Assembly: GCA_017633865.1 (NCBI GenBank) | Contig: JAGBOM010000101.1 | Location: 1-21,022 of the forward strand | From: Opitutales bacterium | GTDB lineage: Bacteria > Verrucomicrobiota > Verrucomicrobiia > Opitutales > Intestinicryptomonadaceae | Length of the DNA: 21,022 bases | Direction: 5' to 3' | Shown here: positions 114 through 17,929 of the stretch, one piece after another | Layout of the letters: every line of letters starts with the position of its first letter | How positions within the stretch are numbered: the first letter of the stretch is position 1 | Translations under genes and position numbers: made by a program | The notes under the pieces: model-generated | What the model saw: the letters and a program-made list of their open reading frames with translations, nothing else | Database searches by the model: none | What the model was told of the DNA's origin: nothing

Positions 114-700
114 TCTTCTATTCCTACAAATTTTTGGGTGTAAACTCCATCGGCGACCTTGACGGTTATCCACTTCCCCTTCTCAGGCAACGGATTGTCT
201 TGCTCGTCGTAAACGGCGGTTAGCATTGCGTCTATTTGGGGCTTGTCGTAAAATCTGTCCTGAAGCTCCGCTGCGGGGCTTCCGTCTATCAGGTCGTTTT
301 TAACGGTGCACGTCGTTTGCAGGACCGTCACGATTTTGCCGTCGGAAGTGGAATACTCGACCTCGAGATACGCCGGGACGGACTCGGAGTCGCCGAGAGC
401 CTGCTCGATGTTTACGGTGTTTAGGGGCAGCGTAATTTCGGCGTGGCCGCCCTCGTTTATGGCGTAGGAATCTGCGAAGGTAAGGAGCTTGGGGTAGCCC
501 TTGAATCTCGCTATCGCGACCTTCAAAAAATCGCGGCGGGGGACGAGCGTCCTTTCGGCATATACCCCCTCGGCCTTTTCGAGAAGGCGGACGACAAGGG
601 GCTCGTTGTCGCCCTGCATAAATACGGGGGAGGGGACCGCCCTTTCGGATGTCTCGCTCTGGACGAGTTTTTTGCTGTCGGCGTCGATGAAAAGCGTCAT
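110..700 (-). CDS. Distal tail / baseplate-type protein, unknown family
   Basis: Protein of 196 residues from the chosen start (MTLFIDADSKKLVQ). The frame is open up to position 784, but the ATG at 700 lies just after the upstream gene's stop at 717 and exactly 14 nt after a TTTGACA element, a spacing repeated at other starts here. The sequence is acidic and beta-rich, with no signal peptide or catalytic motif. The C-terminal stretch (DRFYDKPQIDAMLTAVYDEQ) resembles the short helical linkers of receptor-binding or baseplate proteins. Position at the distal end of the tail genes suggests a baseplate or fibre-associated role; this is inference from gene order. Coupled by overlap to the secreted protein that follows. 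Confidence 0.65.
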   Translation of the reverse strand: MTLFIDADSKKLVQSETSERAVPSPVFMQGDNEPLVVRLLEKAEGVYAERTLVPRRDFLKVAIARFKGYPKLLTFADSYAINEGGHAEITLPLNTVNIEQALGDSESVPAYLEVEYSTSDGKIVTVLQTTCTVKNDLIDGSPAAELQDRFYDKPQIDAMLTAVYDEQDNPLPEKGKWITVKVADGVYTQKFVGIEE

Positions 701-714
701 ACAAATTATGGCGG

Positions 715-721
715 TGTCAAA
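715..721 (-). promoter_or_regulatory. TTTGACA start-associated element (site 1)
   Basis: TTTGACA on the minus strand, 14 nt before the ATG at 700. It includes the TGA stop of the upstream gene, so it overlaps coding sequence. It favours the short start of the downstream gene. Confidence 0.5.
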
Positions 722-1412
722 TTTCAGGGCCTTCGGCATCGGGTTTTTCGGGCTCGCGGGGGCGGCCGTTCTCGCCGCCGCCAAGCGTCGGGTCGAAAGT
801 TTTGTCCGTGTTTTCCTCGACGTCGAAAACGTCGTAATATAGGGCGCCTTCGTTCAGATTCAGGTATCCTCCGCGCTCCTCGAATCCCCCATAAAAAAAC
901 GAGCTCTCAAATTCCGAAAACGAGCCGAATTCGGAGCGGCTTTCGGGAAGGTCAAGCCCGACGCCGGCGAACCTCCTTACCGCGCCGCCGATTAGATAGC
1001 TTTTAATCTCGTCTTCGGAGAACGCAAAATCCCCCAAATACACAAAATCAACCGCGGGCTCGCCGTCCCCGATTGCGCCTGTTTGCAAGTTGTATGCGAT
1101 GCGCTTAAAGACGAGCGGAACGGGCTTGGTAGGAAGCGGATTTTCGCAAATAATCCCGACGCCTAAAATTTCAACCTCCTCGCCGAGTCTGCCCTCGAAA
1201 TTCGTGTTGCCGCTGTGTATATTGACTCCGAAATAGCTTCTTGCGTTAGGCGCGCCGTCGTGAAACGGGGTCTTGTAAAGCTCATGCTGGTAGGCGTAAA
1301 TCCCGACGGGCCTATGGCTCCATTCGGCGAACACCTTATCGTCCGCCTCTGTATTTGTGCCCATGAATCCGTAAAGGCGGACGGGGCGGCCTATCTCCTC
1401 GCTGAAAGTCAT
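717..1412 (-). CDS. Distal tail protein, unknown family
   Basis: Protein of 231 residues starting MTFSEEIGRPVRLYGF. This start was preferred over one ten codons earlier because its ATG overlaps the upstream stop as ATGA (1409-1412). It has aromatic and Gly-rich segments and an acidic, Pro/Glu-rich tail (about the last 30 residues) that looks disordered. No recognised domain, transmembrane segment or active site. It sits in a run of four overlapping or closely spaced minus-strand genes downstream of the tape measure, where siphophages keep distal tail and baseplate proteins. Function is otherwise unknown. Confidence 0.65.
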   Translation of the reverse strand: MTFSEEIGRPVRLYGFMGTNTEADDKVFAEWSHRPVGIYAYQHELYKTPFHDGAPNARSYFGVNIHSGNTNFEGRLGEEVEILGVGIICENPLPTKPVPLVFKRIAYNLQTGAIGDGEPAVDFVYLGDFAFSEDEIKSYLIGGAVRRFAGVGLDLPESRSEFGSFSEFESSFFYGGFEERGGYLNLNEGALYYDVFDVEENTDKTFDPTLGGGENGRPREPEKPDAEGPEI

Positions 1413-1984
1413 ACGCGCCAATAAAGAAGCCTCGGCGAGCAAAATTCGGCTCCCAGGCTTCCGCTTAAAAAATTGTAGATTTTCCCGTCAACTACCTTTG
1501 CGAGCGTAATATAGGCGATTGTCTGCGAATCTTCGTGCTCGGTTGTTTCCTGCGCTATTACGGATACGGAATCGGGAAGCTCCATAAACCTATCCTCGAA
1601 TTCCAGCTGCAAAAAGACGTAAAAAGCGCCTTCCTGCGCGACTTCAAGCTCCGCTTTTTCAGAGCTTATTGCCATGCCGTTTATCGTCGGCTCAATGTCG
1701 CATACGGTGCCGCTTCTTATTCGGAGCTTTATAGTCTTATCTCCTGTGCCCGACTTGTATGCGGTTAGGGGAAGCTTGGGCGAGGCCGCCGACGCTTCCC
1801 TGTCGAGAATTGTAAGCGTGGTTCCGCCGTAGCCGCGGTTCATGGCGTACCCTACGCCGTTTTGCAGGCGGCAGGCCTCTATCATCGAGCATATGTCGTT
1901 TAGCCTTTCCGCGGTAACCTGGTCTAAAAGGGGCTCTCCCGCCTTGAAGCGCGGCAGCTTCTGGTTCCCGAAATCCTTAACCAT
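1409..1984 (-). CDS. Distal tail protein, unknown family
   Basis: Protein of 191 residues (MVKDFGNQKLPRFKAGEPLLDQVTAERLN...). The first 45 residues are helical and include a conserved-looking LNDI segment; the rest is beta-rich. Similar short proteins with an N-terminal helix for trimerisation and a beta body are common in baseplates, but no named family was recognised. The start overlaps the previous stop by 8 nt and the 3' end overlaps the next gene by ATGA, so it is translationally coupled on both sides. No Shine-Dalgarno or TTTGACA element is seen before it. Confidence 0.65.
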   Translation of the reverse strand: MVKDFGNQKLPRFKAGEPLLDQVTAERLNDICSMIEACRLQNGVGYAMNRGYGGTTLTILDREASAASPKLPLTAYKSGTGDKTIKLRIRSGTVCDIEPTINGMAISSEKAELEVAQEGAFYVFLQLEFEDRFMELPDSVSVIAQETTEHEDSQTIAYITLAKVVDGKIYNFLSGSLGAEFCSPRLLYWRV

Positions 1985-2663
1985 AAATGTATTTGTTCCA
2001 ACCGTTTGGCCCGCTTAATAGATATGTGGCGGACACTTTGTACTTGCCGTCGGCCATAGTGGCGTATGAAATGCCCGTGCACATCCACTGCCTCTTGCCT
2101 CCGACGGATGGGAGCCCCGCAGCGCCGCCCATCGAGCCTATGCCGCCGAGACCCGGCCTCGTCTTTGAAACGTAGCTTACGGAGGCGGAATACGACGGCA
2201 CTAAATAGGACTTTACCCCGGCCATTATTTTGCCGCCGTCAGTCTTTGAGCTCCAGCCCGCGAACTTTCCGTCCTCGTCGAATATTCCGCTTTTGGGGCT
2301 CTCGGGCGTTCCGGCCCAGCGCTCGAAATTCGGATGGGACTCTATAGGCTCCTCCCTCATTGTGCAGGAAACCTCTATTGTGTTTTCGCGCGAATCGTTC
2401 GTGGAACTCCAAGACTCCGAGCCCTCGTATTGGGCGGTGATAATCGCGCCTTCGCCGTGCTTTTTTATTGAGACCGATTTGCAGTACAATCCCGCCCATA
2501 TCGGGTGGACTGATTTATTTACTATCGGGCAGTGCGAAACCGCCGCCGAATACGGATAGCAAAACCAAATAGCAGAACACGTCGCAACGGAATCGGCGGA
2601 AACTATCCTTTCCCCCGAATCCCTCAAAAAACAAACCTCTCCGTTTTTTAAGCGTACGCGCAT
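1977..2663 (-). CDS. Tail protein downstream of the tape measure, unknown family
   Basis: Protein of 228 residues with many Ser, Gly and aromatic residues and several Cys in the N-terminal half (ATCSAIWFCYPYSAAVSHC, YCKS, SCTM). It has no signal peptide. A Gly-rich loop (RPGLGGIGSMGGAAGLPSVGG) sits around residues 170-190. It is the first tail gene after the interruption by the toxin-antitoxin/BRO cargo and heads the distal tail operon. The ATG lies 14 nt after TTTGACA and lacks a Shine-Dalgarno. A distal tail or baseplate hub role is inferred from position only. Confidence 0.65.
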   Translation of the reverse strand: MRVRLKNGEVCFLRDSGERIVSADSVATCSAIWFCYPYSAAVSHCPIVNKSVHPIWAGLYCKSVSIKKHGEGAIITAQYEGSESWSSTNDSRENTIEVSCTMREEPIESHPNFERWAGTPESPKSGIFDEDGKFAGWSSKTDGGKIMAGVKSYLVPSYSASVSYVSKTRPGLGGIGSMGGAAGLPSVGGKRQWMCTGISYATMADGKYKVSATYLLSGPNGWNKYIYG

Positions 2664-2677
2664 AAAAAATGGAGGCT

Positions 2678-2684
2678 TGTCAAA
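2678..2684 (-). promoter_or_regulatory. TTTGACA start-associated element (site 2)
   Basis: TTTGACA on the minus strand, 14 nt before the ATG at 2663. It lies in the 39-bp divergent gap shared with the BRO-like gene. Confidence 0.5.
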
Positions 2685-2702
2685 AAGAATGGGAAGTGCT
2701 AA

Positions 2703-3134
2703 ATGGAAGCATTAACAAAATATTTAGCCATGCCGAAAAAAGAACTTCCGGAAAACAACAAAGGGCTTGTGATATTCAAGGGCAAAAATATTCGCAGGAT
2801 TGAGCATAACGGCGAATGGTATTTTTCGATTATCGACATTGTGGAAGCCCTTACAGACACAAACAATGCCCGCCGCTATCGGAGCGACCTAAAAAGAAAA
2901 CTGTCTGATGAAGAGGGATTTAGCCAAGTGTACGAAAAAATCGTACAGTTGAAATTGCCGGCGTCCGACGGGAAAAATTATTCCACCGACACTATAAAAG
3001 GTGGGGAGAAAAGTGAGGAGAAAGGTAAGGAGAAAATTCCAAAATTTCCTATTCAATCAAAAGGTTGGGGATCTCTTTTTGCCAATCTTTTGAAGGCGTT
3101 TCGATATGATATTATAAAAAACTCTCCGTTTTAG
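2703..3134 (+). CDS. BRO-N domain protein, probably truncated
   Basis: Reading frame of 143 codons. Residues about 30-95 match the BRO family N-terminal domain, which binds DNA and occurs in phage antirepressors: IRRIEHNGEWYFSIIDIVEALT, then an RYRSDLKRKL segment, then a VQLKLPASDGKNY segment. In intact relatives the domain continues into a helix with an IPSPKAEPFK-like motif and a C-terminal half. Here homology stops after YSTDT and the next residues are a Gly/Glu/Lys-rich stretch made by three imperfect GGAGAAA repeats, then unrelated sequence to the stop. I read this as a decayed or recombined copy that may still give a DNA-binding fragment. It is divergent from the tail operon and convergent with the antitoxin gene. 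Confidence 0.6.
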   Translation: MEALTKYLAMPKKELPENNKGLVIFKGKNIRRIEHNGEWYFSIIDIVEALTDTNNARRYRSDLKRKLSDEEGFSQVYEKIVQLKLPASDGKNYSTDTIKGGEKSEEKGKEKIPKFPIQSKGWGSLFANLLKAFRYDIIKNSPF

Positions 3135-3149
3135 CGGAGAGCTCCTTTT
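3116..3149 (-). terminator. Intrinsic terminator after the toxin-antitoxin operon
   Basis: Seven-bp perfect stem CTCTCCG/CGGAGAG (3122-3128 with 3135-3141) and a 6-nt loop. Read on the minus strand it is followed by TTTTTT, a canonical rho-independent terminator for higBA. On the plus strand it is followed by CTCCTTTT, so it may also weakly end the BRO-like transcript. Confidence 0.8.
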
Positions 3150-3155
3150 AAATGC

Positions 3156-3446
3156 TTAGGCCTCGACAAGCTGGACTTTGAATTTCATTCCGAGAGCGGA
3201 AGCCGCCTTTGTCGCGGTCTTAAATGTCAGGCTTGTATTTTTTGGATTTAGAATTCGCGTGGCTACCGCGCGCGTGGAGCCCATTTTTCTTGCAAATTCC
3301 GAAACGGTCATGCCTTTTGACTCCAATTCTTCGGAGAGTTTGATTGCAAGAAATTTGCACGAAGCCAATTCCTCGACATCGGAGCGGATTTCGTTGTCGT
3401 CGAGAAAGCTGTCGAAAGAAGAGCCTATATGTTTATTTTTTTTCAT
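3156..3446 (-). CDS. higA: HigA-type antitoxin, XRE helix-turn-helix
   Basis: Protein of 96 residues with an XRE-type helix-turn-helix at about 46-86 (MTVSEFARKMGSTRAVATRIL, then SLTFKTATKAASALGM). It should bind and neutralise the RelE-like toxin encoded just upstream and repress the shared promoter. The gene overlaps the toxin gene by 14 nt, is second in the operon (the usual order for HigBA) and has a strong Shine-Dalgarno (AAAGGAGG, 6 nt before ATG), unlike most phage genes nearby. A strong terminator follows. The assignment to a toxin-antitoxin pair rests on domain and order; activity is not shown by sequence. Confidence 0.85.
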   Translation of the reverse strand: MKKNKHIGSSFDSFLDDNEIRSDVEELASCKFLAIKLSEELESKGMTVSEFARKMGSTRAVATRILNPKNTSLTFKTATKAASALGMKFKVQLVEA

Positions 3447-3798
3447 TTAATACCTCCTTTAATCTTTTTATCGCCATTTTAATGTCTTTATCGTCTGTTT
3501 TTTGCGTCTTTTTTATGAAAGAGTGCAAAAGAACGAGTTTATCGCCGATTTGGGAAAAAAGAACTCGGGCAATTCTGTTTTTTAGCGTGGAGCGAATTTC
3601 GTAAACGGAATTCCCGAGATTTTTCACCAAAGGCTCTCCCGTAGGCCACCGCCACTGGACAACCTTGATGTCCGTTCCTATGATTTTCTTTTCTTCGTCG
3701 GAAAGGGTTTGCAGAAATTCGCGCACAGGTTCTCTACCAGCCGATGTTCTGTAAAAATAAACCTCTATGCGTTCGTTCCTTTTCATTTTTTCGCCCAT
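3433..3798 (-). CDS. higB: HigB/RelE-family toxin (phage Gp49-like)
   Basis: Protein of 121 residues, or 117 if translation starts at the second ATG (3786). It has the pattern of the phage-derived Gp49-like/HigB branch of the RelE superfamily: an N-terminal IEVYFYRTSAGREPVREFL, a central YEIRS strand and the hallmark LHSFIKKTQKT (91-101) before the final helix. Family members are ribosome-dependent mRNA interferases. The gene is promoter-proximal and overlaps the antitoxin start. It sits between the tape measure and distal tail genes, so it is cargo in a late region. The autoregulatory site upstream supports an intact operon. Confidence 0.85.
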   Translation of the reverse strand: MGEKMKRNERIEVYFYRTSAGREPVREFLQTLSDEEKKIIGTDIKVVQWRWPTGEPLVKNLGNSVYEIRSTLKNRIARVLFSQIGDKLVLLHSFIKKTQKTDDKDIKMAIKRLKEVLNEKK

Positions 3799-3801
3799 AT
3801 G

Positions 3802-3829
3802 TGTATCAAAAAAGATACAGTCATGTCAA
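3802..3829 (-). promoter_or_regulatory. higBA promoter with overlapping operator
   Basis: On the minus strand a TTGACA box (3824-3829) is followed after 16-17 nt by a weak -10 (GATACA/ATACAC). The spacer holds a perfect inverted repeat, TGTATC-N6-GATACA (3802-3819), a typical size for an XRE antitoxin operator. Placed only 3 nt before the toxin start, so the transcript would be nearly leaderless for the first ATG; the second ATG at 3786 may be the real start. Confidence 0.6.
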
Positions 3830-3833
3830 GAAA

Positions 3834-5306: not shown

Positions 5307-5823
5307 TTTGCACCTCCTCGATTATCCGCCTTTCCTCGTCAGACTGGATTTGCGCGACTCCTTCCTGCTCGGCAAATGTCGCGCAATACCATAAAAGCTC
5401 GCCAAGAGGCATATTCCAGACTTCGTTTAGCGTTATAGACGTTTTAGAGAGCAAAAGCATAGCTTTTGACAATATCCAAGGCGCGTTGAGCGTGGTTTCC
5501 GAGTCGGTTCTATCCCAAAACTCGGGAACGGCTATAAAGTCCGTCAGATACGAAAGGAATGCCGTTAATCCGCGCTTAAAGCTGTAAAGCTTCATAAGCA
5601 AATGCGGACGCCTCAATTCATTTATTACATCGTCCGACGAGCAGACGATGACGGCGACTTCCAAGTCTTGGCGGGCGATTTCCGCCTCGTCGCCGTTTAT
5701 GAGTTTCATTACGGGAGAGCCGATAGCTTCCAGATAGAGACAATGTTTTAGAGAAAACGGCTTCAGGCGTCTGCCCAAAGCCGTATGATTGCAATTTATG
5801 AAGGCCTCGTAAAAGCTTTCCAT
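5296..5823 (-). CDS. Tail assembly chaperone candidate
   Basis: Protein of 175 residues from MESFYEAFINCNHTALGRRL. This start shares its A with the TGA of the previous gene (TGATG), so translation is coupled; the frame is open further upstream but only within the neighbour's sequence. The protein is mostly helical, with no catalytic or membrane motif. It lies between the tail tube candidate and the tape measure and overlaps the latter, which is where siphophages encode the chaperone that keeps the tape measure soluble. No slippery site joining it to a second chaperone product was noticed. Role inferred from position. Confidence 0.6.
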   Translation of the reverse strand: MESFYEAFINCNHTALGRRLKPFSLKHCLYLEAIGSPVMKLINGDEAEIARQDLEVAVIVCSSDDVINELRRPHLLMKLYSFKRGLTAFLSYLTDFIAVPEFWDRTDSETTLNAPWILSKAMLLLSKTSITLNEVWNMPLGELLWYCATFAEQEGVAQIQSDEERRIIEEVQNGK

Positions 5824-6188
5824 CAGTTGACCTCTGCAAGCGGAACGTCGGGGTAGAAATTCCCTTCCAAGTCCCACTTTTCAACGTCCTTTCTCGCCCG
5901 CGACTTCTTGACTGATTTCACGATGAAAGAAAAGTTTTCGCCAATGGTGAAAGTGTCTCCCGGACTCGGAGCTGTCGTCCCGACAAGCGGAATGACGCTC
6001 GCAGTGCGCTTAATGCGAATGCCAAATCCCGAAAAGTGCGCTACGACGTTCCCTTCCTCGTTCTCGACTTCCAGCTCTTCGCCCTCGACCGTCTCTTCTG
6101 TCGCGTCGACTATGTAGCCTGTAAGCTTTTCGACGCCGAATGAAATCGGCTGTTTTGTGCCCCTAAGTTTGTATGTTTCGTTCGCCAT
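5823..6188 (-). CDS. Tail tube protein candidate
   Basis: Protein of 121 residues (MANETYKLRGTKQPISFGVEK...), beta-rich, with Gly/Glu loops and a basic KSVKKSRARKD segment near the C-terminus. It is shorter than most major tail proteins. Its position after the tail terminator-like gene and before the chaperone and tape measure fits the tube protein. No family was recognised with certainty; it could also be a small connector. The ATG follows TTTGACA by 14 nt and no Shine-Dalgarno is present, notable for a protein expected at high copy number. Confidence 0.5.
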   Translation of the reverse strand: MANETYKLRGTKQPISFGVEKLTGYIVDATEETVEGEELEVENEEGNVVAHFSGFGIRIKRTASVIPLVGTTAPSPGDTFTIGENFSFIVKSVKKSRARKDVEKWDLEGNFYPDVPLAEVN

Positions 6189-6202
6189 ACAAAAGATATG
6201 CG

Positions 6203-6209
6203 TGTCAAA
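6203..6209 (-). promoter_or_regulatory. TTTGACA start-associated element (site 3)
   Basis: TTTGACA on the minus strand in the 23-nt gap before the tail tube candidate, 14 nt before its ATG at 6188. The 14 nt end in TTTTGT directly before ATG. Confidence 0.5.
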
Positions 6210-6211
6210 AT

Positions 6212-6610: not shown

Positions 6611-7349
6611 TAAAAATTCTTCCAGATTTGTCCATAAGACGCTTGATATTGTTTTCCATCGCCTTCATTTGGGCGGCAAAAGCCCGTTTTAATATCCTCA
6701 TAGGCGTCCCGCCCTGCGGGAATGTCGAAACTCTGTTTATGAGTGTAAAGAATGGGTTGTCTCCCTTATTGCCGTCTATAAATCCGCCGTATTTAACGCC
6801 GTGCCGATTTACAAAGCTTGGTGCTTTGCCTCCAAGTTTTGTAAGTGCCGCAAGCCAGCCAGACTTTGCAACGCCCACTTGAAGCTGAACCTTGCGTATA
6901 TACTTTTTAAGCTCGCCTTTACCCGCGACTGCGTATTGCGTGCGCCAATTTTTCGGCACTCTGCCGTTCTTGCCGATAGCCGCTTTGTGGATATTTCTGA
7001 CGGGCTTTGCGAATATGCGCTTGTATTTGAAAATCGGCATTTCGGACTTGTTCGGGTGGTTCTCAAGAGCCTTTTTTACGCCCTCGAAGTTTCCCGCCCG
7101 CCATATTTTGTTCAGCGACTTGTCTTCCCAATTTGTACCGCTTAGATCTGCGAACACTTTGCCAATGTCCCGAGCAACATTGCGCTTACCGATAGCCGCA
7201 GTTTTAGGCGGCGTGAATTTTAAAAGCTTTTCGCCTACAATGCGCGACTGCTGGCGAACTACAAATTGCCAATCTTTCTGGCATGCGACTTTATATCGGA
7301 CAAGGGCGTCTTCAAAATCTTTGGTGATAATTTGAAAATCCACGCTCAT
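6594..7349 (-). CDS. HK97 gp10-like / minor tail protein Z-like
   Basis: Protein of 251 residues, strongly basic, with an N-terminal helix (FEDALVRYKVACQKDWQFVVRQQSRIVGEKLLKFTPP) that is the common opening of gp10-like and tail protein Z-like connectors, where the protein joins head and tail or completes the tail. The middle is Lys/Arg-rich (KRIFAKPVRNIHKAAIGKNGR), and the C-terminal helix ends the molecule. It overlaps the previous gene as ATGA and the next by 17 nt. It is longer than the HK97 protein, so the middle insertion may be lineage specific. Confidence 0.6.
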   Translation of the reverse strand: MSVDFQIITKDFEDALVRYKVACQKDWQFVVRQQSRIVGEKLLKFTPPKTAAIGKRNVARDIGKVFADLSGTNWEDKSLNKIWRAGNFEGVKKALENHPNKSEMPIFKYKRIFAKPVRNIHKAAIGKNGRVPKNWRTQYAVAGKGELKKYIRKVQLQVGVAKSGWLAALTKLGGKAPSFVNRHGVKYGGFIDGNKGDNPFFTLINRVSTFPQGGTPMRILKRAFAAQMKAMENNIKRLMDKSGRIFNEKRT

Positions 7350-7657
7350 TTGTCGATATGCCTTAGGGTTATTTCAACTTGTCCGCGATTGGTGCGCACA
7401 GAAACCCAATGTATGCGGTATTGCTTGCCGTTATATTCGACGATTTCGCCGATATGGGGAGTCTCGCCGCCAAGCTCCGACTCCAAAAACTTTATGTTAA
7501 AAGTAAAGTCAGGGACAAACCCGCCAGACTCCAATTCCACCGCTTCTTGCCCCTCGGCAATTATCGCGTTCATCTCACGCCCGCGCCAGATTACAGGTTG
7601 GGAGAATTCGGAAAATATCTCCCTAAGCGCAGATTTTACTTCACTAAAAAAGCCCAT
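7346..7657 (-). CDS. Head-tail joining protein, gpFII-like
   Basis: Protein of 103 residues (MGFFSEVKSALREIFSEF...). An N-terminal helix is followed by a beta barrel-like body with EIVEYNGKQYRIHWV, the pattern of small head-tail joining proteins (lambda FII type), where a putative ligand-binding loop precedes a YRI strand. It is the first gene of the tail-joining group. Its start codon is inside a terminator-like hairpin and follows TTTGACA by 14 nt. Because a terminator and an antisense ATPase gene separate it from the head genes, it may need its own promoter in the 140-bp gap upstream. Confidence 0.65.
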   Translation of the reverse strand: MGFFSEVKSALREIFSEFSQPVIWRGREMNAIIAEGQEAVELESGGFVPDFTFNIKFLESELGGETPHIGEIVEYNGKQYRIHWVSVRTNRGQVEITLRHIDK

Positions 7658-7672
7658 ACAAATATGGGCTTT
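7646..7672 (-). terminator. Terminator-like hairpin over a start codon
   Basis: A 10-bp stem (AAAGCCCATA with TATGGGCTTT, 7649-7658 and 7663-7672) closes a 4-nt loop and, read on the minus strand, runs into TTTTTT. The right arm contains the ATG of the joining protein gene, whose first codons ATG GGC TTT TTT form the arm and the T tract. It could be an attenuator, a translation-blocking hairpin or chance. Confidence 0.45.
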
Positions 7673-7678
7673 GTCAAA
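7672..7678 (-). promoter_or_regulatory. TTTGACA start-associated element (site 4)
   Basis: TTTGACA on the minus strand, 14 nt before the ATG at 7657 and at the outer edge of the hairpin that encloses that ATG. Confidence 0.5.
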
Positions 7679-7710
7679 ATAATTAGATGACTCATCGTCT
7701 AAAAAATATC

Positions 7711-7795
7711 TTGAAAACGTGAAAATTATTGCTTGTAAAAACCTTGAAAACGTGATTTAAGCTGTTCCGTAAAACCTTGAAAACGTGATTTAAGC
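7711..7795. repeat. Three direct repeats with exact 33-bp period before an ATPase gene
   Basis: The core TTGAAAACGTGA occurs at 7711, 7744 and 7777, each 33 bp apart. Copies two and three are identical over 25 bp (7738-7762 and 7771-7795), extending to TTTAAGC; copies one and two share a GTAAAA(A)CC right part. The last copy ends 2 nt before the ATPase start. Three helical turns of spacing suggests a cooperative protein-binding array in a divergent promoter region. An imperfect inverted repeat (TTAGATGA/TCGTCTAA, 7683-7702) lies just upstream. Confidence 0.75.
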
Positions 7796-7797
7796 CT

Positions 7798-9150: not shown

Positions 9151-9155
9151 TTCAC

Positions 9156-9183
9156 AAAAAGAGAGCTTTTTTCAAAAGCTCTC
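9156..9183 (-). terminator. Intrinsic terminator at the end of the head genes
   Basis: A perfect 10-bp stem (GAGAGCTTTT 9161-9170 with AAAAGCTCTC 9174-9183), 3-nt loop, followed on the minus strand by TTTTT. It ends transcription coming from the capsid genes before the antisense ATPase gene. On the plus strand no T tract follows, so the ATPase gene itself is not obviously terminated. Confidence 0.8.
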
Positions 9184-9209
9184 CCGAATATGGAATCGTA
9201 TTCAAATTC

Positions 9210-9772: not shown

Positions 9773-9775
9773 AGG

Positions 9776-10678: not shown

Positions 10679-10695
10679 GTGGGTTTCCTTTCAAA

Positions 10696-11157
10696 TTATT
10701 TGTTTTCGCGCAGATATGCGGAGATCTTTTCCCCGTATTTTTCCATAAGAATCGCCTTTTCTCTCCCCGAGGATTTCGAGAGCATCTCGGAGATTTCCGG
10801 CATCGAAAGCTCGTCGGATTCCAGCGGGGCTTCTACGGGCGCCTCTATCCCCGATTCGCCCGCGATTTTAGCGGCGAGCGCCGAGGCCCGCTTTTCGACG
10901 TCCATATCCTTCGCGGAAAGGATGTCGTACTCTTTTTGGAGCCCGGAGAGCTTAGACTTTAATTCGGCGTTTGCGTTTTGCTCGCTTTCGACCGAGCTTT
11001 TAAGCGCGAAAATTTCCGAGGAAAGCTCGTCGTTTCGGCTTCTAAGCTTCAAGTTTTCCGCCTCCAGCGATTCGATTCGCGCGGAGAGGCTGTCGATTTT
11101 GTTTTGCGAATTCTCGATTAGAAGAACCGCTTCCTGCAGTGTGTTTGGCTTGTTCAT
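10696..11157 (-). CDS. Coiled-coil scaffold-like protein
   Basis: Protein of 153 residues. Residues about 10-90 form a long heptad-like coiled coil (LIENSQNKIDSLSARIESLEAENLKLRSRNDELSSEI...). A short Ala-rich segment (RASALAAKIAGESGIEAP) and an acidic linker lead to a C-terminal helix (MSKSSG.. then EKYGEKISAYLRENK) that could bind capsid subunits. Position between the head protease and capsid gene, and removal by that protease in related systems, fit an internal scaffold. It is coupled to the protease gene by ATGA and also has TTTGACA 14 nt before its ATG; AAGAGG in between may act as a weak Shine-Dalgarno. Confidence 0.65.
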   Translation of the reverse strand: MNKPNTLQEAVLLIENSQNKIDSLSARIESLEAENLKLRSRNDELSSEIFALKSSVESEQNANAELKSKLSGLQKEYDILSAKDMDVEKRASALAAKIAGESGIEAPVEAPLESDELSMPEISEMLSKSSGREKAILMEKYGEKISAYLRENK

Positions 11158-12011
11158 ACAGATTGCCTCTTTGTCAAATAGAGCAGCTTTTCGTACGCGG
11201 CGGATTCGCCGCGAATGCCGTCGATTAGGTTGTTTTCCAGCGCTTTAAATCCCACAAAAGGCTGACCCCGCATCGCCTCCGAGGGAATGTTTCGGTATTT
11301 TAAAACATGGCTTTTGAAGAGCTCGAAAAACGATTCGGTTTCGAGCTGCAGGCTTTGGCGCTCCAATGCGGACTGGCCCGGGGGCATTCCGCTTGCCTTT
11401 AAGATCCCGTCGCGGTTTGTAATGTAGTCGGGCTTTATCCCGAGCTTTTCCCAAAGCGCCTCCTCGTTCAATAAGGGTAGAATCGTCCCAATGCTTCCAG
11501 CGAGCGTGTCGGGGTTTGCGAAGATGTAGTTTGCGCCCGACGCTATTGCGTATGCGGCCGAGCAGCAATAATCCTGAGCGTGGACGACCACGGGGAGCTT
11601 TGAGGCGGCGAAGGCTTTTGCCGCGTTCGCGTTCCCCGAAGCGTGTCCGCCCGGGGAATTGATTTTAAGAAATATTCCGCGCGCGCTTTTTTCGGCATAT
11701 TTCAAATCCTCCAAAAGCTCGTCGTATCCCGTCCCTCCGTATGCCGCCACGATAAACGGGGCTTCGTCCTGAAACAGCGCCCCGCGAATTTCGATGTGGG
11801 CTATGCCGCTTTCGTCTATGCGGGATTTCGCGCGCTGCCTTACAAAAGGCGCGAAAAATTCCCGCAAAGCGTCTAAGTTCGCGCCCTCGGGAGCCCCTCC
11901 TTTTTGCATATGCGGCGGCTGCGCGGCCTCGCGGTTGCACAGTTCCAAAAAAGCGGCGGGAAGGATATTCCACGCCCTAAACGACATTTGTAAAAATTTT
12001 TCGGTTTCCAT
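11154..12011 (-). CDS. Head maturation protease, S49 (SppA-like)
   Basis: Protein of 285 residues from METEKFLQM. It has the S49 core: KINSPGG (116-122, oxyanion region) and the nucleophile segment YCCSAAYAIASGA with Ser151, then GSIGTI (172-177). Phage members cleave the scaffold and capsid N-terminus, equivalent to lambda gpC. The frame is open to 12146, inside the portal gene, but the start at 12011 is supported by TTTGACA 15 nt upstream and by placing translation after the portal stop. A 69-nt gap upstream holds a perfect 22-bp palindrome. Confidence 0.85.
   Translation of the reverse strand: METEKFLQMSFRAWNILPAAFLELCNREAAQPPHMQKGGAPEGANLDALREFFAPFVRQRAKSRIDESGIAHIEIRGALFQDEAPFIVAAYGGTGYDELLEDLKYAEKSARGIFLKINSPGGHASGNANAAKAFAASKLPVVVHAQDYCCSAAYAIASGANYIFANPDTLAGSIGTILPLLNEEALWEKLGIKPDYITNRDGILKASGMPPGQSALERQSLQLETESFFELFKSHVLKYRNIPSEAMRGQPFVGFKALENNLIDGIRGESAAYEKLLYLTKRQSV
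11172..11178 (-). promoter_or_regulatory. TTTGACA start-associated element (site 5)
   Basis: TTTGACA on the minus strand, 14 nt before the ATG at 11157. It lies inside the last codons of the protease gene (leucine-threonine). Confidence 0.45.
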
Positions 12012-12026
12012 TAAAATACGCCGAAT

Positions 12027-12033
12027 TGTCAAA
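12027..12033 (-). promoter_or_regulatory. TTTGACA start-associated element (site 6)
   Basis: TTTGACA on the minus strand, 15 nt before the protease ATG at 12011, and 4 bp from a 22-bp palindrome. Confidence 0.5.
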
Positions 12034-12037
12034 TCGA

Positions 12038-12059
12038 ATAATTGACGCGCGTCAATTAT
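12038..12059. repeat. Perfect 22-bp palindrome between portal and protease genes
   Basis: Half-site ATAATTGACGC followed directly by its reverse complement, no spacer. It begins 20 nt after the portal stop. As DNA it resembles a dimeric operator; as RNA it can fold a 9-bp stem with a GCGC loop just before the protease start. It has no T tract, so it is not an intrinsic terminator. Confidence 0.7.
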
Positions 12060-12079
12060 CGCCGGCAAAACTTGGGAGT

Positions 12080-13501
12080 TTAAGCTTCGGTATGCCCCGA
12101 ATCCACAGTTATGACCTGGCTGCCCTGGGGCTTGTAGAGCATCCAAAGCGGGATGGGCTCGCTGTCGGCAATCCCCGCAAGGCGCATTATGTGGCGCGCG
12201 TTTGAGGCGCGGGTTTGCATTTCGTCCTCAAAGTCCAGCCCCAATTCGGAATAGGCGTTTTCAAGGGTTTTTAGCCCCGCCTCGACATTGAGGCGCTGCT
12301 GCTGTTCCTCACGCCCCGCGTCGACGGTGGCGCGTTTGGGGTGCGTCCACGCGACTTTGTGCCAGCCTGTTTGGTTTTCGAGCTCGCCCGTTTTTATGGC
12401 GTGTCCTATTACGAACATCCATACGGGATAGTTCAGCCTTTCGTCGAGCGTTCTGCCGCGGTCGTCGATATAGCGCTGGGCTTTCGACAGGATTAGCCGC
12501 ACGCCCGCGCCGCCCACCGATGACGGATCGACCGCGAATTCGTAGGGGAGAACCCCGAGGGAGCCGCTGCGCTGAAGCTCGGCCAAAAATCCCGAAAAAG
12601 TGGGGGAGGGAATGTTGCTTTCAAACGCCTCTATTTTTTCGCCGGGGTTTAGCCTGAAGCTTTTGCCGCCGAACTTTTTTTCTATGTCGCGCGGATTTGT
12701 TTCGCGGATTTCGCAATTTTCCGAATTTATGCTAAAATCCGAATCGTCTATGTTGGAGTTTTCGCTTGTGATAATCCGCGCGATGTCGGAGATTAGCTTT
12801 ACCTTGTGCTTTTCAAGCGATAGAATTTCATTCCTATCGAGAACGTCCAATATAGAATGCTGTATGCCCGGGAAAGCCCGTATGCAGGAGGCGCGCTCTG
12901 GCTCGAATATGTGCAAAACGGCGTACGCGGGAATTTTTCTTATAGGCGCATCGTCGGAGGATTTAAAATAGTAGAATAGCGGCTCTCCGAACCTCCCGAA
13001 CTTTATTCCCGACTGCGCGCCTTCTTCGCGGCATTCCCCCGCGAGGCGGTGCGTTTCCAAAACCTGGATTTTCGGGCGCTTTTGGGCGTCGTAGGTTTTT
13101 ACAGCAAAAATTTCGCCGTCGACGTCTATTGCGCGCGACACCAACCCTTGGACTTCGCGGAAGGAAAAACGGTTTGTGACGTCGCATTTTCGCGACCAGC
13201 TGCGGAAATACTCCTCGGCATTGCGGTTCCAGTCGGAATTCGGGCTTTTTGCGTTCGGGCGGATCCCGTCGCCGATGCCGTAGACTTTCATGTCGCGCAG
13301 CGTCCCGCGAATGTGTCCGGAGTTCTTCTCCAAATACCTGGCGCGGCGGACGAGTTCGCTCCTCGTGTACGGGGTGAGCTCGTTTTTGGCGTCGGTAGGG
13401 TACGCCCCCGGCGGGGTTCCCCTTCGCGGGGAAACTTTGGCGGAATCGAAGGCGTCGCCTATAGAATAAAATATTCCGCTTAGAAATTTGCGGAGTTTCA
13501 T
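12080..13501 (-). CDS. Portal protein, lambda gpB family
   Basis: Protein of 473 residues, close to the family length. The N-terminal ELVRRARYLEKNSGHIRGTLRDMKVYGIGDGI (about 46-78) is the typical start of lambda-type portals. It continues with FSFREVQGLVSRAIDVDGEIF, a clip region, and a C-terminal crown helix region (GREEQQQRLNVEAGLKTLENAYSELGLDFEDEM). It forms the dodecameric DNA channel and binds the terminase and connector. It is coupled to the upstream gpW-like gene as ATGA. Confidence 0.85.
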   Translation of the reverse strand: MKLRKFLSGIFYSIGDAFDSAKVSPRRGTPPGAYPTDAKNELTPYTRSELVRRARYLEKNSGHIRGTLRDMKVYGIGDGIRPNAKSPNSDWNRNAEEYFRSWSRKCDVTNRFSFREVQGLVSRAIDVDGEIFAVKTYDAQKRPKIQVLETHRLAGECREEGAQSGIKFGRFGEPLFYYFKSSDDAPIRKIPAYAVLHIFEPERASCIRAFPGIQHSILDVLDRNEILSLEKHKVKLISDIARIITSENSNIDDSDFSINSENCEIRETNPRDIEKKFGGKSFRLNPGEKIEAFESNIPSPTFSGFLAELQRSGSLGVLPYEFAVDPSSVGGAGVRLILSKAQRYIDDRGRTLDERLNYPVWMFVIGHAIKTGELENQTGWHKVAWTHPKRATVDAGREEQQQRLNVEAGLKTLENAYSELGLDFEDEMQTRASNARHIMRLAGIADSEPIPLWMLYKPQGSQVITVDSGHTEA

Positions 13502-13749
13502 TTCGGGAATCCTCCGCTTAAATCGGCATAGCGCAATCGGCTTGCTTTGCCGTATTTTTTCGGATTCATTTTTTGGAGCGCCTGCTGGCAGCTTGAAATT
13601 ATGGAGTTGATTTCGTCTAGGCGCCGCTTCGTCGCAGAGCTTCCAGAATCCGAGAACGACTGCAAGGTCTTTTTTAGCTCCTCTTTTTGGATTGCGAGGA
13701 TTCCCAAAACCTCCTCTTCCGTAAAGCCTATCGAGTAGTCAATCGCCAT
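13498..13749 (-). CDS. gpW-like head-tail connector
   Basis: Protein of 83 residues from MAIDYSIGFTEEEVL. Two helices (TEEEVLGILAIQKEELKKTLQSF and KRRLDEINSIISSCQQALQKMNP) and its place directly before the portal gene match small gpW-like joining proteins. The frame is open to 13770 with an ATG at 13764, but the start at 13749 lies 15 nt after TTTGACA, the spacing seen elsewhere, while the earlier ATG would abut the element. The following terminase-side DNA has been replaced by cargo genes. Confidence 0.65.
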   Translation of the reverse strand: MAIDYSIGFTEEEVLGILAIQKEELKKTLQSFSDSGSSATKRRLDEINSIISSCQQALQKMNPKKYGKASRLRYADLSGGFPK

Positions 13750-13764
13750 TTGGAATTGGCGCAT

Positions 13765-13771
13765 TGTCAAA
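13765..13771 (-). promoter_or_regulatory. TTTGACA start-associated element (site 7)
   Basis: TTTGACA on the minus strand, 15 nt before the inferred ATG at 13749 and directly abutting an alternative ATG at 13764. Confidence 0.45.
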
Positions 13772-13810
13772 AAGAAATCCCTTGAATCTGAAAATTTTAC
13801 GATAAAACTA

Positions 13811-13843
13811 TTGACTAATTTATATCGGCACTATAAATTAGTC
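13811..13843 (+). promoter_or_regulatory. Promoter with a 12+12 inverted repeat before an ATPase gene
   Basis: A perfect inverted repeat GACTAATTTATA-N7-TATAAATTAGTC (13813-13843). A -35-like TTGACT (13811-13816) and -10-like TATAAA or TAAATT (13832-13839) lie inside or at its edge at 15-17 nt spacing, so a protein bound to the repeat would block the promoter. The ATPase start is 37 nt further on. Confidence 0.65.
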
Positions 13844-13880
13844 ATAAATAAACTCGATAATTCAATGTAAGGATTTAACA

Positions 13881-15095
13881 ATGCATCTAAAAAGAACTCT
13901 TACCCCCAAAATAATTCAGGCTTCGAAATCTTTTCCGGTAGTCCTAATAACGGGGCCGCGCCAAGTCGGGAAAACGACTATATTTGAAGACGTAAAAGAG
14001 CCCGAAAGAATTTCGGTGAGTCTTGACGATCCCGAAGTCAGGGTTCTTGCGCAGGAAGATCCCAGGCTGTTTCTGTCAACATACAAACCGCCTGTTTTAA
14101 TTGACGAAATCCAATATGCGCCCCAATTATTCCCGTATATAAAGATGATTGCTGACAAGGAAAAGAAGCCGGGCAGTTATTGGATAACCGGATCGCAGGT
14201 ATTTCCGCTTATGAAGAACGTGTCCGAAAGTTTGGCGGGGCGCGTCGGGGTGTTGGATCTGCAGGGATTATCGCAATCCGAAAAGCAAAAGCGGCCTTTT
14301 AGAAAGCCGTTTCTGCCTTCTTCCGAAATAAACAATGAATTGATTCCCTACACTTCGGAAAGTTTGTACGAATGCATATTTCGCGGTTCTTTTCCCGGAT
14401 TTGTCGCAAACAGCAATATGGATTGGCAGTCTTTTTATCGCTCGTATGTCTCCACTTATCTGGAAAGAGACGTGAGGCAAATATTAAATATTGCCCAGGA
14501 AAACAATTTCATAAAATTTCTTTCCGTCGCGGCCGCTAGGACCGGACAAATTTTAAACTATAGCGATATGGCAAGAGACTGCGATGTTACTGTCGCGACT
14601 ATAAAGTCTTGGGTATCGGTTTTGCGGACTTCGGGACTGGTTTTCCTGCTTTATCCGTATTCAAACAATTTAACCAAGCGCGCTATAAAAACGCCCAAGC
14701 TGTATTTTTACGACACGGGGCTTGTATGCTATTTATGCCGCATTTGGGATTCGAAAAGCGCGGAGGACGGAATTTTATCGGGTGCCTTGATGGAGACATT
14801 TGTCGTTTCCGAAATAGCAAAGAGCTACATCCATAACGGCAAAATGCCCAATTTCTATTTTTACAGGGATAAGACGGGAAAAGAGATAGATTTAATTATC
14901 GAGGAAAATCTTGCGTTATATCCCGTTGAAATAAAGCGCACCGCCACTCCGAGCAAAGCGGATATCAAAAATTTTAAAGTCCTGGATTCAATAAAAGGAA
15001 AGAAGCGTTTGGGATTGGGGGCAGTTATATCTTTGCGCCCAGACTTATTGCCCATAAGCAAGGACACAGTCGCCATTCCGGTATCGTACATATAA
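13881..15095 (+). CDS. AAA ATPase with DUF4143 domain
   Basis: Protein of 404 residues. Walker A GPRQVGKT (25-32), Walker B PVLIDEIQ (71-78), an ITGSQ sensor segment (102-106), a winged-helix-like linker (DMARDCDVTVATIKSWVSVL, 229-248) and a C-terminal DUF4143 region with GKEIDLII (333-340) and PVEIKRT (348-354), giving the D...ExK layout of restriction-like nucleases. It is a different subgroup from the other ATPase in this window and is not a recent duplicate. A weak ribosome binding site (TAAGGAT) is present. Antisense to the late genes and convergent with the 87-aa gene 2 nt away. Probably cargo. Confidence 0.85.
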   Translation: MHLKRTLTPKIIQASKSFPVVLITGPRQVGKTTIFEDVKEPERISVSLDDPEVRVLAQEDPRLFLSTYKPPVLIDEIQYAPQLFPYIKMIADKEKKPGSYWITGSQVFPLMKNVSESLAGRVGVLDLQGLSQSEKQKRPFRKPFLPSSEINNELIPYTSESLYECIFRGSFPGFVANSNMDWQSFYRSYVSTYLERDVRQILNIAQENNFIKFLSVAAARTGQILNYSDMARDCDVTVATIKSWVSVLRTSGLVFLLYPYSNNLTKRAIKTPKLYFYDTGLVCYLCRIWDSKSAEDGILSGALMETFVVSEIAKSYIHNGKMPNFYFYRDKTGKEIDLIIEENLALYPVEIKRTATPSKADIKNFKVLDSIKGKKRLGLGAVISLRPDLLPISKDTVAIPVSYI

Positions 15096-15097
15096 TC

Positions 15098-15361
15098 CTA
15101 AAATGCCCATTTAGATTCGGGCAAATAGCGTTTTACGATTGTCTCTTTTGTATCTGATTCTTCGGTATGCCCAACGACTTTGTAGAATTTTGTTTCGAAG
15201 AAATTGACTGCCGGGATTTCCATCGCCGTATTTAGCTCCATCGTTTTTACCATCGGAACTTTCGAGGGCGTCGTTTCGTCTTCCAGTGCCAGCATAAGCC
15301 TGGATTCGTCGCCTTCCTCCAAAATCTCTGAATACATTAAGATGTCGTTTTTCCTTATCAT
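15098..15361 (-). CDS. Unknown 87-aa protein with its own promoter
   Basis: Protein MIRKNDILMYSEILEEGDES... of 87 residues, acidic in the first half. The ATG at 15361 was chosen because GAAAGAGC lies 5 nt upstream; a TTG five codons earlier is less likely. No domain recognised and no membrane segment. Its promoter region is a diverged inverted copy of the one before the amidoligase operon, so the two are probably regulated together. It ends 2 nt from the convergent ATPase gene. It could be an accessory regulator or inhibitor, which is speculation. Confidence 0.65.
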   Translation of the reverse strand: MIRKNDILMYSEILEEGDESRLMLALEDETTPSKVPMVKTMELNTAMEIPAVNFFETKFYKVVGHTEESDTKETIVKRYLPESKWAF

Positions 15362-15380
15362 GTCTTGCTCTTTCAACGCC

Positions 15381-15446
15381 GCCTATATACGCTCTACAAA
15401 TCATTTGTATCAAGCTTTATATCAACTATTTGAAAAGATTTATTTT
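15381..15446 (-). promoter_or_regulatory. Promoter region copy A (before the 87-aa gene)
   Basis: On the minus strand: -35 TTGATA (15408-15413), 18-nt spacer, -10 TATATA (15384-15389), then a short leader with the ribosome binding site. A second TTGATA lies 12 bp upstream of the first. By eye about 80% identical over about 65 bp to the region at 16904-16970. Confidence 0.65.
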
Positions 15447-15481
15447 GAGGTTTTTTTTGAAAAAACTTGGCTTGTTAGAAA

Positions 15482-16726
15482 CTAATCAAGCTCGAATTTT
15501 TCCCCGTTTTTCAAAATTTTAGTGCCGGGATAAAGGGCGAGATATCGTTTTAAAATCACGTCGCAGTATTTGGGGTCGAGCTCCATCATGCGGCATTTGC
15601 GTTTTGATTGGGCGCAGGCGATTAGCGTCGAGCCGCTGCCGCCGAACAAGTCCAAAACAATGCCCTTGGGCTTCGAGGAATTCAAAATCGCGCGCTCGCA
15701 AAGCTCGACGGGCTTCATCGTGGGGTGGACGTCGTTTTTCTTCGGCTTGGGGAATTCCCAAACATCGCCCTGCGAGCGGTCCGCGCAAAAGTAGTGCGGG
15801 TTGCCGTCCTTCCATCCGTACAGAATCGGCTCGTATTGCCTGTGGTAGTCGGAGCGGCCGAGGGTAAAAGTATCCTTAGCCCAGATTATGAATGTCGACC
15901 AATGCCCGCCGAGCCTTCTGAACGCCGATTGGAGGGCGTCGATTTCGGAGCTGGACATGCAGATGTAAATCGCGCCCTTAGAATGTTCGAAAATGGTTTT
16001 TATGGCTTTCTCCAAAAATCGCGGAAACTCCTCTCCCAAGTTGTCGTTTTCGATTTTCCGCCCGCCGCTTCCGTAGTTGACATTGTACGGGGGGTCGGTA
16101 AAAACCATGTCGGCGACATCGCCTTTCATGAGGGTTTCCGCCTGCGCCGCGTCGGTGGAATCCCCGCACATAAGCCTGTGGCCTGCGAATTCGAATACGT
16201 CCCCGAATTTCGCAATAGGATTTTCCGAAGCTTCGGGAATGTCCTCGTCCAAGATTTCTTTTGAATCAATCTCGCGCAAAAGCTGCTCTGCCTCCGCTTC
16301 CGAAAATCCCGTAAGGTCTATGTCGATTTCGCCGTCGAGCTCCGAAAGAATTTTTTTCAGATCGTCCTCGGACGTTTCGGAAAGCTCCGCCAAGCGGTTG
16401 TCGGCGACAAGAGCCGCCGTTTCCTCGGCGTCCGAGGAAAATTCCTGGTAGTCGACCGGAACGATTTGTAGCCCCAATTTTTTTGCGGCGGCCAGCCTGC
16501 CGTGCCCCGCCACGATATATCCGCTGCGCTTGGACACCGTAATCGGATGGCGCCAGCCTAGATATTTTATGTTTTTTGCAAGCAGCCCTATTTGGGAATC
16601 GGGATGCTTGTTGGGATTTTTCGGATTCGGCTTTAATGCGTCCGAGGAAACGAGCTCGTCGAACGAGCACCATACTTCTATCCCGTTTGCGAGGGCCTTC
16701 GCTTTTGCGTTTTTGTCTTCGTCCAT
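15482..16726 (-). CDS. ParB/Srx-domain and beta-class DNA methyltransferase fusion
   Basis: Protein of 414 residues from MDEDKNAKAKALANG, a start 14 nt after TTTGACA; an ATG four codons earlier is possible. The N-terminal ParB-like nuclease domain has GWRHPITVSKRSGYIVAGHGR (57-77). The methylase has the motif order DPPYNVNYG (211-219) before FGGSGST (361-367), i.e. beta class, acting on N6-adenine or N4-cytosine. Such fusions are frequent in phages, where they may modify phage DNA against restriction or aid packaging-linked methylation. No cognate endonuclease is next to it. It is flanked by two inverted promoter copies. Confidence 0.9.
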   Translation of the reverse strand: MDEDKNAKAKALANGIEVWCSFDELVSSDALKPNPKNPNKHPDSQIGLLAKNIKYLGWRHPITVSKRSGYIVAGHGRLAAAKKLGLQIVPVDYQEFSSDAEETAALVADNRLAELSETSEDDLKKILSELDGEIDIDLTGFSEAEAEQLLREIDSKEILDEDIPEASENPIAKFGDVFEFAGHRLMCGDSTDAAQAETLMKGDVADMVFTDPPYNVNYGSGGRKIENDNLGEEFPRFLEKAIKTIFEHSKGAIYICMSSSEIDALQSAFRRLGGHWSTFIIWAKDTFTLGRSDYHRQYEPILYGWKDGNPHYFCADRSQGDVWEFPKPKKNDVHPTMKPVELCERAILNSSKPKGIVLDLFGGSGSTLIACAQSKRKCRMMELDPKYCDVILKRYLALYPGTKILKNGEKFELD

Positions 16727-16729
16727 GCA

Positions 16730-16748
16730 ATTTGACATTTTGTCAAAT
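16730..16748. repeat. Inverted repeat ATTTGACA-N3-TGTCAAAT
   Basis: Perfect 8-bp arms and a 3-bp centre. One arm is the TTTGACA element (site 8) on the minus strand, and the other is its mirror image, so a dimeric DNA-binding protein could use both. The ATG at 16738 lies at the junction of centre and arm. Confidence 0.6.
16741..16747 (-). promoter_or_regulatory. TTTGACA start-associated element (site 8)
   Basis: TTTGACA on the minus strand, 14 nt before the methyltransferase ATG at 16726. It suggests MDEDKN rather than MSNCMDEDKN as the true N-terminus. Confidence 0.5.
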
Positions 16749-17914: not shown

Positions 17915-17929
17915 AAAGGGGAATAAATT

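Follow-up and report, generated by a model that had tools for sequence, protein, structure and literature searches.

A TTGACA-based element at near-constant distance from the start codons of late genes in a clade of Verrucomicrobiota phages, a possible leaderless promoter

The window analyzed here is a 21,022-nucleotide stretch of DNA from an Opitutales bacterium (GenBank assembly GCA_017633865.1, contig JAGBOM010000101.1). It corresponds to contig C106 of the host assembly (1.80 Mb, 80% complete); other genomes, contigs and loci are denoted below by our own G, C and L numbers. The minus strand of the window represents a tailed phage, with profile matches to a large terminase, a portal protein, a protease, a major head protein, a tape-measure protein and a minor tail protein. 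On this strand, the sequence TTTGACA lies at a nearly constant distance ahead of eight open reading frames (ORFs). The element is conserved over a large phage clade and is at background at that spacing in host samples. The explanation that we favor, to which we assign an even chance, is that the element is a phage-specific late promoter abutting the start codon and giving leaderless mRNAs. Such a promoter would probably be used by the host RNA polymerase together with a helix-turn-helix (HTH) protein.

A previous reading of the window from its sequence only had placed TTTGACA 14 nt before the ATG at 700, 2663, 6188, 7657, 11157 and 16726, and 15 nt before the ATG at 12011 and 13749. All these positions were recovered exactly, and all eight minus-strand copies of TTTGACA in the window precede an ORF start. 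Both strands together contain 11 copies against an expectation of 2.6, a number reached by none of 100 shuffled sequences, and none of the three plus-strand copies stands ahead of a recognizable gene. The host assembly as a whole has 11 matches to TTTGACA-N14/15-ATG, eight of them within the 21-kb window, and none to the reversed control pattern. The elements and the ORFs that they lead are as follows; G005 is a genome with two prophages that carry the same element 14-16 nt before orthologous genes.

715-721, minus strand: TTTGACA element of gene 700 (spacer 701-714, ATG at 700)
110-700, minus strand: motif-led ORF; its orthologues in both G005 prophages also have the element
2678-2684, minus strand: TTTGACA element of gene 2663, within a 39-bp divergent gap to the opposite-strand ORF at 2703
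1977-2663, minus strand: motif-led ORF of 228 amino acids (aa), 79% identical in the G005 prophages
6203-6209, minus strand: TTTGACA element ahead of gene 6188, among the tail genes
5823-6188, minus strand: motif-led ORF of 121 aa, 79% identical in the G005 prophages
7672-7678, minus strand: TTTGACA element ahead of gene 7657, within the 140 bp that separate this gene from a divergent AAA/DUF4143 gene on the opposite strand
7346-7657, minus strand: motif-led gene, predicted minor tail protein (phrog_2551, E 3.5e-4)
11172-11178, minus strand: TTTGACA element ahead of gene 11157, located within the protease ORF, with which this gene has an ATGA overlap
10696-11157, minus strand: motif-led ORF upstream of the capsid gene, scaffold-like in our own reading
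12027-12033, minus strand: TTTGACA element of gene 12011, with a 15-nt spacer
11154-12011, minus strand: motif-led gene, predicted head maturation protease (phrog_53)
13765-13771, minus strand: TTTGACA element ahead of gene 13749, with a 15-nt spacer, within the 131 bp that separate this gene from a divergent AAA/DUF4143 gene on the opposite strand
13498-13749, minus strand: motif-led small ORF upstream of the portal gene
16741-16747, minus strand: TTTGACA element ahead of gene 16726, within the 267 bp that separate this gene from the divergent amidoligase operon on the opposite strand
15482-16726, minus strand: motif-led gene, predicted ParB-N/DNA methyltransferase (profile match)

For the methyltransferase ORF, the ATG at 16738 is a second candidate start. 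The element of this gene forms a palindrome at 16731-16747 (TTTGACA-AAA-TGTCAAA) that holds this alternative start. Another palindrome, the 22-bp ATAATTGACGCGCGTCAATTAT at 12038-12059, lies just upstream of the 12011 motif and has TTGAC on both strands; a similar sequence, TTAACGCGCGTTAA, is found upstream of a motif gene on contig C86 (L081).

Five of the eight window genes have a scored pair of orthologues in G005, and the element is present in both prophages at these genes; the counterparts of genes 13749 and 11157 were matched by position only. The G005 orthologue of the protease gene (12011) has a Shine-Dalgarno sequence instead of the element, and the window copy has the motif without a Shine-Dalgarno sequence. 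Over the 35 listed pairs, mean identity was 38% in the upstream flanks, 51% in the spacers and 72% in the first ten codons; the 100% identity of the motif in these pairs is a result of their selection.

Further loci in viral contigs were collected by portal-protein alignment (20 loci, then the best 80 of at least 575 confirmed), and the 96 loci analyzed were dereplicated to 73 (0.81 Mb). In these 73 loci, TTGACA occurs 364 times on the strand of the portal gene and 59 times on the opposite strand. A start codon of an ORF of at least 60 aa follows it at 13 nt in 144 cases, at 14 nt in 78, at 15 nt in 11, at 16 nt in 35 and at 17 nt in 14, giving a total of 282. Among 11 control hexamers, TGACAT (19) and CATTGA (11) can both overlap TTGACA, and the other nine gave no more than five starts at 13-17 nt and no more than nine at any distance up to 40 nt. 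With genome loci added (76 loci), the enrichment of TTGACA at 13-17 nt was 25-fold. Of its one-base variants in the same 76 loci, TTGACG (72 vs 26) and TTGACT (22 vs 7) were clearly raised and CTGACA (17 vs 9) slightly. The element given as TTTGACA in the sequence-only reading thus holds in the window, but the conserved core across the relatives is TTGAC[A/G/T], with the preference A>G>T. The start codon is GTG at 82 of 303 motif sites. Altogether, 298 of 374 plus-strand sites, and 338 of 458 sites on both strands, are associated with a start. The enrichment in relatives that had been proposed as a check is strong at 13-17 nt before starts over the phage clade. Regions with the best portal matches were also taken from other Verrucomicrobiota genomes (20 of 22 regions); 13 of these 20 contain at least two motif-led ORFs, three contain one and four contain none.

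In host DNA, a start codon lies 13-17 nt after three of 119 TTGACA copies in G005 (400 kb) and four of 73 in G037 (320 kb), or seven of 192 together. A host regulon was considered and rejected, because host genes with that spacing are at the background level. In the other examined genomes of the host family, the recurrent sites belong to integrase-like and excisionase-like genes. The integrase-like genes in G002, G004, G006, G007, G008, G012 and G018 (L068-L072, L078 and L079) have the leader TTTGACA-GGAAAGGATTTTGT-ATG or a near copy of it. Among them the Pfam integrase assignment was confirmed in L069 only, and a further candidate in L280 fell below the cut-off. The excisionase-like genes are found in L067-L069. 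The integrase-bearing loci are possibly phage satellites or remnants that use the regulator of a helper.

The internal structure of the element is visible in high-GC members. When aligned on TTGACA, they read approximately (c)G-TTGACA-C-N9-GGC, followed by the start codon. We counted one site per gene family and distance in loci above 50% GC with start distances of 15-17 nt (n = 39). G was found at position 11 after TTGACA in 29 and at position 10 in 23 of these sites, as compared with 4 at -2 and 16 at -3 of the ATG. A second element, G about 11 nt beyond TTGACA, is therefore phased with TTGACA and not with the ATG. As G follows TTGACA rather than the start codon, the two parts appear to make up a single bipartite element that is followed, after 0-4 nt, by the start codon. 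Among the eight spacers of the window, five have G two bases before the ATG.

The sequence-only reading had proposed either a translation-initiation signal or a phage-specific regulator site. The regulator site is well supported by the conservation in the clade, the host background and the linkage to an HTH gene described below. The translational alternative is weakened by the phasing of G, by the tRNA genes and other distances described below, and by the absence of a complement from two 16S genes of the host family. In this alternative, UUGACA at about -20 to -14 would stand in for the Shine-Dalgarno sequence, and an RNA-binding protein of phage or host would bring the 30S subunit to it. We regard this as unlikely, though it is the strongest of the alternatives. 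The tight distance to the start codon speaks for it, as does the protease gene, where the motif in the window and the Shine-Dalgarno sequence in G005 replace each other. Moreover, with 119 copies in 400 kb of host DNA, TTGACA could not be specific unless something else, for example a start codon, marked the site as well. Shine-Dalgarno-like tetramers are also depleted in the spacers (15 of 303; mean of shuffles 26, minimum 14). In the window, their absence, claimed before for most motif genes, was seen in seven of eight spacers, the 11157 spacer having a Shine-Dalgarno-like GAGG, and the capsid, tape-measure, higA and amidoligase genes do lack the element as had been claimed. However, a Shine-Dalgarno-like tetramer was found in only 56 of 226 host genes by a crude count, so its absence in the phage says little. 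The search for 16S complementarity that the same reading had suggested was negative for the anti-motif TGTCAA in two complete 16S genes of the host family (L237 and L238). The shorter GTCAA occurs in only two regions of these genes, both of which we take to be paired helices. The preference for A over G at position 6 is contrary to pairing with CGUCAA. A hairpin between the element and the start is strong in two of the eight window genes (7657 and 13749) and was rejected as a general feature: mean folding energies of the spacer with nine coding bases were only slightly stronger than those of shuffles (-4.6 vs -4.2 kcal/mol at distance 13, -5.1 vs -3.8 at distance 16 and -3.3 vs -1.6 for the eight window genes).

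An upstream ORF ends near the element at 267 of 345 sites. The TGA of the motif is its stop codon in 70 of these, as in the gene-700 element, where TGA (719-717) ends the upstream ORF 1442-717. The ORF runs through the motif in 60 (41 with an ATGA overlap) and stops earlier in 137. These proportions are approximate, since the ORF calls were simple and the choice of starts was partly guided by the motif. A stop codon inside the motif was considered as a functional unit and rejected; with so many ORFs running through or stopping before the motif, the shared TGA looks like economy, not mechanism.

Besides the phasing of G, several observations point to action at the DNA level. ARAGORN predicted 65 tRNA genes in the loci and joined regions, and TTGACA lies within 45 nt upstream of five of them. 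Three are tRNA-Met genes beside the portal gene, with the element 18 nt ahead in G037 and G273 and 19 nt ahead in L250 of G038, and with no start codon. The fourth is a tRNA-Met gene ahead of the tape-measure gene in L091 (45 nt), and the fifth a tRNA-His gene of G208 outside the late region. Between the G037 and G273 leaders the N10 differs, while TTGACA and GG are kept. Ahead of a few genes, the element stands at a different distance and has G at position 10 or 11 (19 nt in L139, 26 nt in L137 and 53 nt in L254, all picked by eye). GG at positions 10-11 was found in 14 of 57 plus-strand sites without a start in range and in 5 of 44 sites on the other strand, two classes that were defined slightly differently and include genome loci running in the opposite sense. 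Separately, about 20 tRNA genes form an array in L147 and L149, where the portal gene lies on the other strand.

The arrangement of the window also bears on how its late genes are transcribed. Four opposite-strand units (a Bro-N fragment, two AAA/DUF4143 genes and the amidoligase operon) lie divergently upstream of motif-led late genes, at gaps of 39, 140, 131 and 267 bp, respectively, and the motif is present in all four gaps. Because these units are divergent and the gap is as small as 39 bp, the late genes behind them need a start signal of their own. There is an exception in the G005 prophages, in which the gene after one cargo block has a Shine-Dalgarno sequence and no motif. A site for RNA processing, at which a long late transcript is cut just before each gene block or tRNA, would likewise yield RNAs whose 5' end lies at a start codon or ahead of a tRNA gene. 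Since it leaves both the four genes behind opposite-strand units and the linkage to the HTH gene unexplained, we consider it highly improbable.

The late promoter that we favor would be bipartite, TTGAC[A/G/T]-N10-12-G, and would serve the late (structural) blocks, the HTH-adjacent gene and some integrase genes. We infer a transcription start a few bases past the G, which would place it at the start codon or immediately ahead of it and make the mRNAs leaderless or nearly so. A transcription start at or near the ATG would account for the fixed spacing between element and ATG. In most later genes of a block, the start codon overlaps or abuts the preceding stop codon, which couples them, or a Shine-Dalgarno sequence is present. 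The sequence-only reading was right that the element is not a canonical sigma-70 promoter: the expected -10 position, about 17 bp after TTGACA, falls inside the ORF, and no conserved hexamer is found there. Its rejection of a promoter on this ground went too far, as the argument excludes the sigma-70 geometry and leaves room for another type of promoter with its transcription start at or close to the ATG. Neither Verrucomicrobia phage P8625 nor Akkermansia phage Moulinsart has TTGACA at 13-17 nt. P8625 (L107) has four TTGACA copies exactly 30 nt upstream of annotated starts (5412, 10736, 15558 and 22406), three of them with a GTATCC/GGATAC-like inverted repeat between TTGACA and the start. In our reading, these four sites fit candidate leaderless sigma-70 promoters, with -35 and -10 boxes and a transcription start at the ATG, and they make a leaderless design plausible in this group.

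A candidate for the protein that would direct the host RNA polymerase to the element is encoded at the end of the early region. ORF clustering of 13 motif-bearing prophage regions and the window found one HTH family at this place; it directly precedes the late genes in 10 of these 14 sets. Beyond these members, a first profile built from them gave weak matches in G172, in G127 and in one of eight comparison phages (G161), and no match in the G185 region. A less circular profile, A5, built from the L139 copy and its database relatives, matches 10 of 12 genomes with at least two motif-led ORFs in their portal regions, the matches in G172 and G229 being weak. It matches none of five genomes with one or no motif-led ORF on a long contig (G194, G334, G161, G074 and G021). 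In the host assembly, A5 has a match on contig C86 (G000:C86) beside another motif-carrying gene, and over the phylum the gene is present in 16 of 387 genomes. When 11 HTH loci were taken regardless of the motif, nine had start-associated TTGACA nearby (29 of 63 copies vs 7 of 192 in the host samples), and of the two negative ones, one is a contig of 3.4 kb and the other an AT-rich stretch of 9 kb. A protein search gave 758 relatives of the HTH protein. Among the 120 listed, the few source names are mostly "hypothetical protein", with one sigma24 and one YlxM, and some are from Verrucomicrobiota. The protein has one HTH and no match to sigma region 2, so that regions 2 and 4 were not found together. 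Its predicted structure is of moderate quality (mean pLDDT 72, pTM 0.40), and a fold search with it gave nothing significant (best PDB E 0.1), the weak matches often being sigma factors and MarR-type regulators. We regard it as a predicted DNA-binding HTH protein and not as a sigma factor. The sigma-like late activators of phages of the ArpU/RinA/Xpf type are small HTH proteins encoded at the early/late junction. The likeness lies in the type of protein and its gene position, and the target geometry here is unlike a -35/-10 promoter.

Other observations count against a promoter read by this protein. We know of no bacterial promoter with such a geometry, and the aligned sites show neither a -10-like box nor an upstream element. 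In the window, the spacing is 14-15 nt throughout, so that phasing to TTGACA and phasing to the ATG are inseparable there. The three tRNA cases beside the portal gene are related insertions, two of them in one genus. In addition, TTGACG lies within 45 nt of three more tRNA genes, encoding tRNA-Gln in G273, tRNA-Gly in G039 and tRNA-Leu in G334 (a non-motif region), and part of the tRNA association may represent ordinary promoters. As for the HTH protein, the 10 strong matches of the first profile are circular. No A5 match was found in G203 and G127 despite their motif, and G185 has its matches elsewhere than in the portal prophage. The motif and the HTH gene lie on different strands in G262 and G352. 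Among five genomes with motif-led integrase genes that were searched for the HTH gene, G002, G004, G006 and G008 have no match and G012 has the gene. The resemblance of the protein to sigma factors is weak (PHROG sigma family at E 1e-3 to 4e-3 in three of six proteins), and of 52 members 41 touch MarR_2 and six touch Sigma70_r4, all weakly.

Oriented, repeated elements near gene starts are known from other phages. The stoperators of cluster A mycobacteriophages are 13-bp sites bound by the immunity repressor and are described as short, asymmetric, multi-copy, orientation-specific and intergenic (PMC9283540). The present element shares with them its multiple oriented copies near gene starts and, in their sense-strand reading, TTGACA, which in phage D29 also stands ahead of some start codons. 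An asymmetric repressor site of this kind, at which a phage protein near gene starts halts elongating RNA polymerase in the lysogen, is in our view improbable, and more so than a translational signal. In 29 kb of D29, with sites allowed one mismatch to the consensus, a start codon of an ORF of at least 40 aa lies 13-15 nt beyond four of 19 sense-strand sites, compared with 298 of 374 plus-strand sites here. The D29 sites are thus less tied to start codons, and a Shine-Dalgarno-like sequence lies between. The present sites form an oriented multi-copy set in short intergenic regions, yet 130 of 267 overlap the upstream ORF or its stop. The replication genes of prophage ph1 lack the motif, although early genes are where an immunity system would be expected to act, and the position of the HTH gene at the end of the early region likewise argues against such a role.

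The start-associated sequence (SAS) of cluster K mycobacteriophages is a 13-bp sequence containing AGGAG, typically 3-7 bp from the start, in the non-structural-gene half of the genome (PMC3203893, PMC11373665). Both elements are short, asymmetric, nearly single in orientation, repeated before many phage genes at a near-fixed distance and nearly absent from the host. The present element differs in having no Shine-Dalgarno sequence, in lying 13-17 nt away, and in standing before structural and tRNA genes; a 13-bp GGGATAGGAGCCC-like sequence with a Shine-Dalgarno core 3-7 bp from the start was not found. Very short promoter elements near the transcription start before many phage genes, as proposed here, are also described for the late promoters of the jumbo phages AR9 and phiKZ. 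The AR9 late promoter is AACA-N6-T[A/G] with leaders of 26-491 nt, and phiKZ has TATG at the start point (PMC5312081, PMC12809450). These differ in sequence and geometry, and are read by phage-encoded multisubunit RNA polymerases. No polymerase gene was noticed in the ORF listings of the two G005 prophages, for which no polymerase profile search was run. Among the titles and abstract openings listed for open-license papers on Verrucomicrobia/Akkermansia phage motifs and leaderless phage or prophage genes, none describes the element.

Further features were noted in the window and in the clade. Between the gene-7657 motif and the opposite-strand AAA/DUF4143 gene, three direct repeats (7704-7795; CTTGAAAACGTGA core, 33-nt period) resemble iterons or operators. 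The divergent gap before the second AAA/DUF4143 gene contains a perfect 13-nt inverted repeat with a 7-nt loop (13812-13844). The opposite-strand operon at 16994-18957, located in the late region, encodes an amidoligase and a gamma-glutamyl cyclotransferase-like protein. A class I methyltransferase gene just before the large terminase gene (L062:820-1515 and relatives) is motif-led in several members of the clade.

To our knowledge, there has been almost no study of how genes are controlled in the phages of Verrucomicrobiota, the phylum that includes Akkermansia. The broadest form of our explanation, which we put forward tentatively and with clearly less confidence than the late promoter itself, is a new promoter class common to a large phage clade present in many metagenomes. 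In it, a small phage HTH protein would retarget the host RNA polymerase to TTGACA-N10-12-G, and each late block would be expressed from its own leaderless mRNA. If the late-promoter explanation is right, these phages would have a simple late-gene switch with a candidate factor, and leaderless expression in Verrucomicrobiota would become directly testable. The six-base word at 13-17 nt is a ready marker for these prophages and for their likely gene starts.

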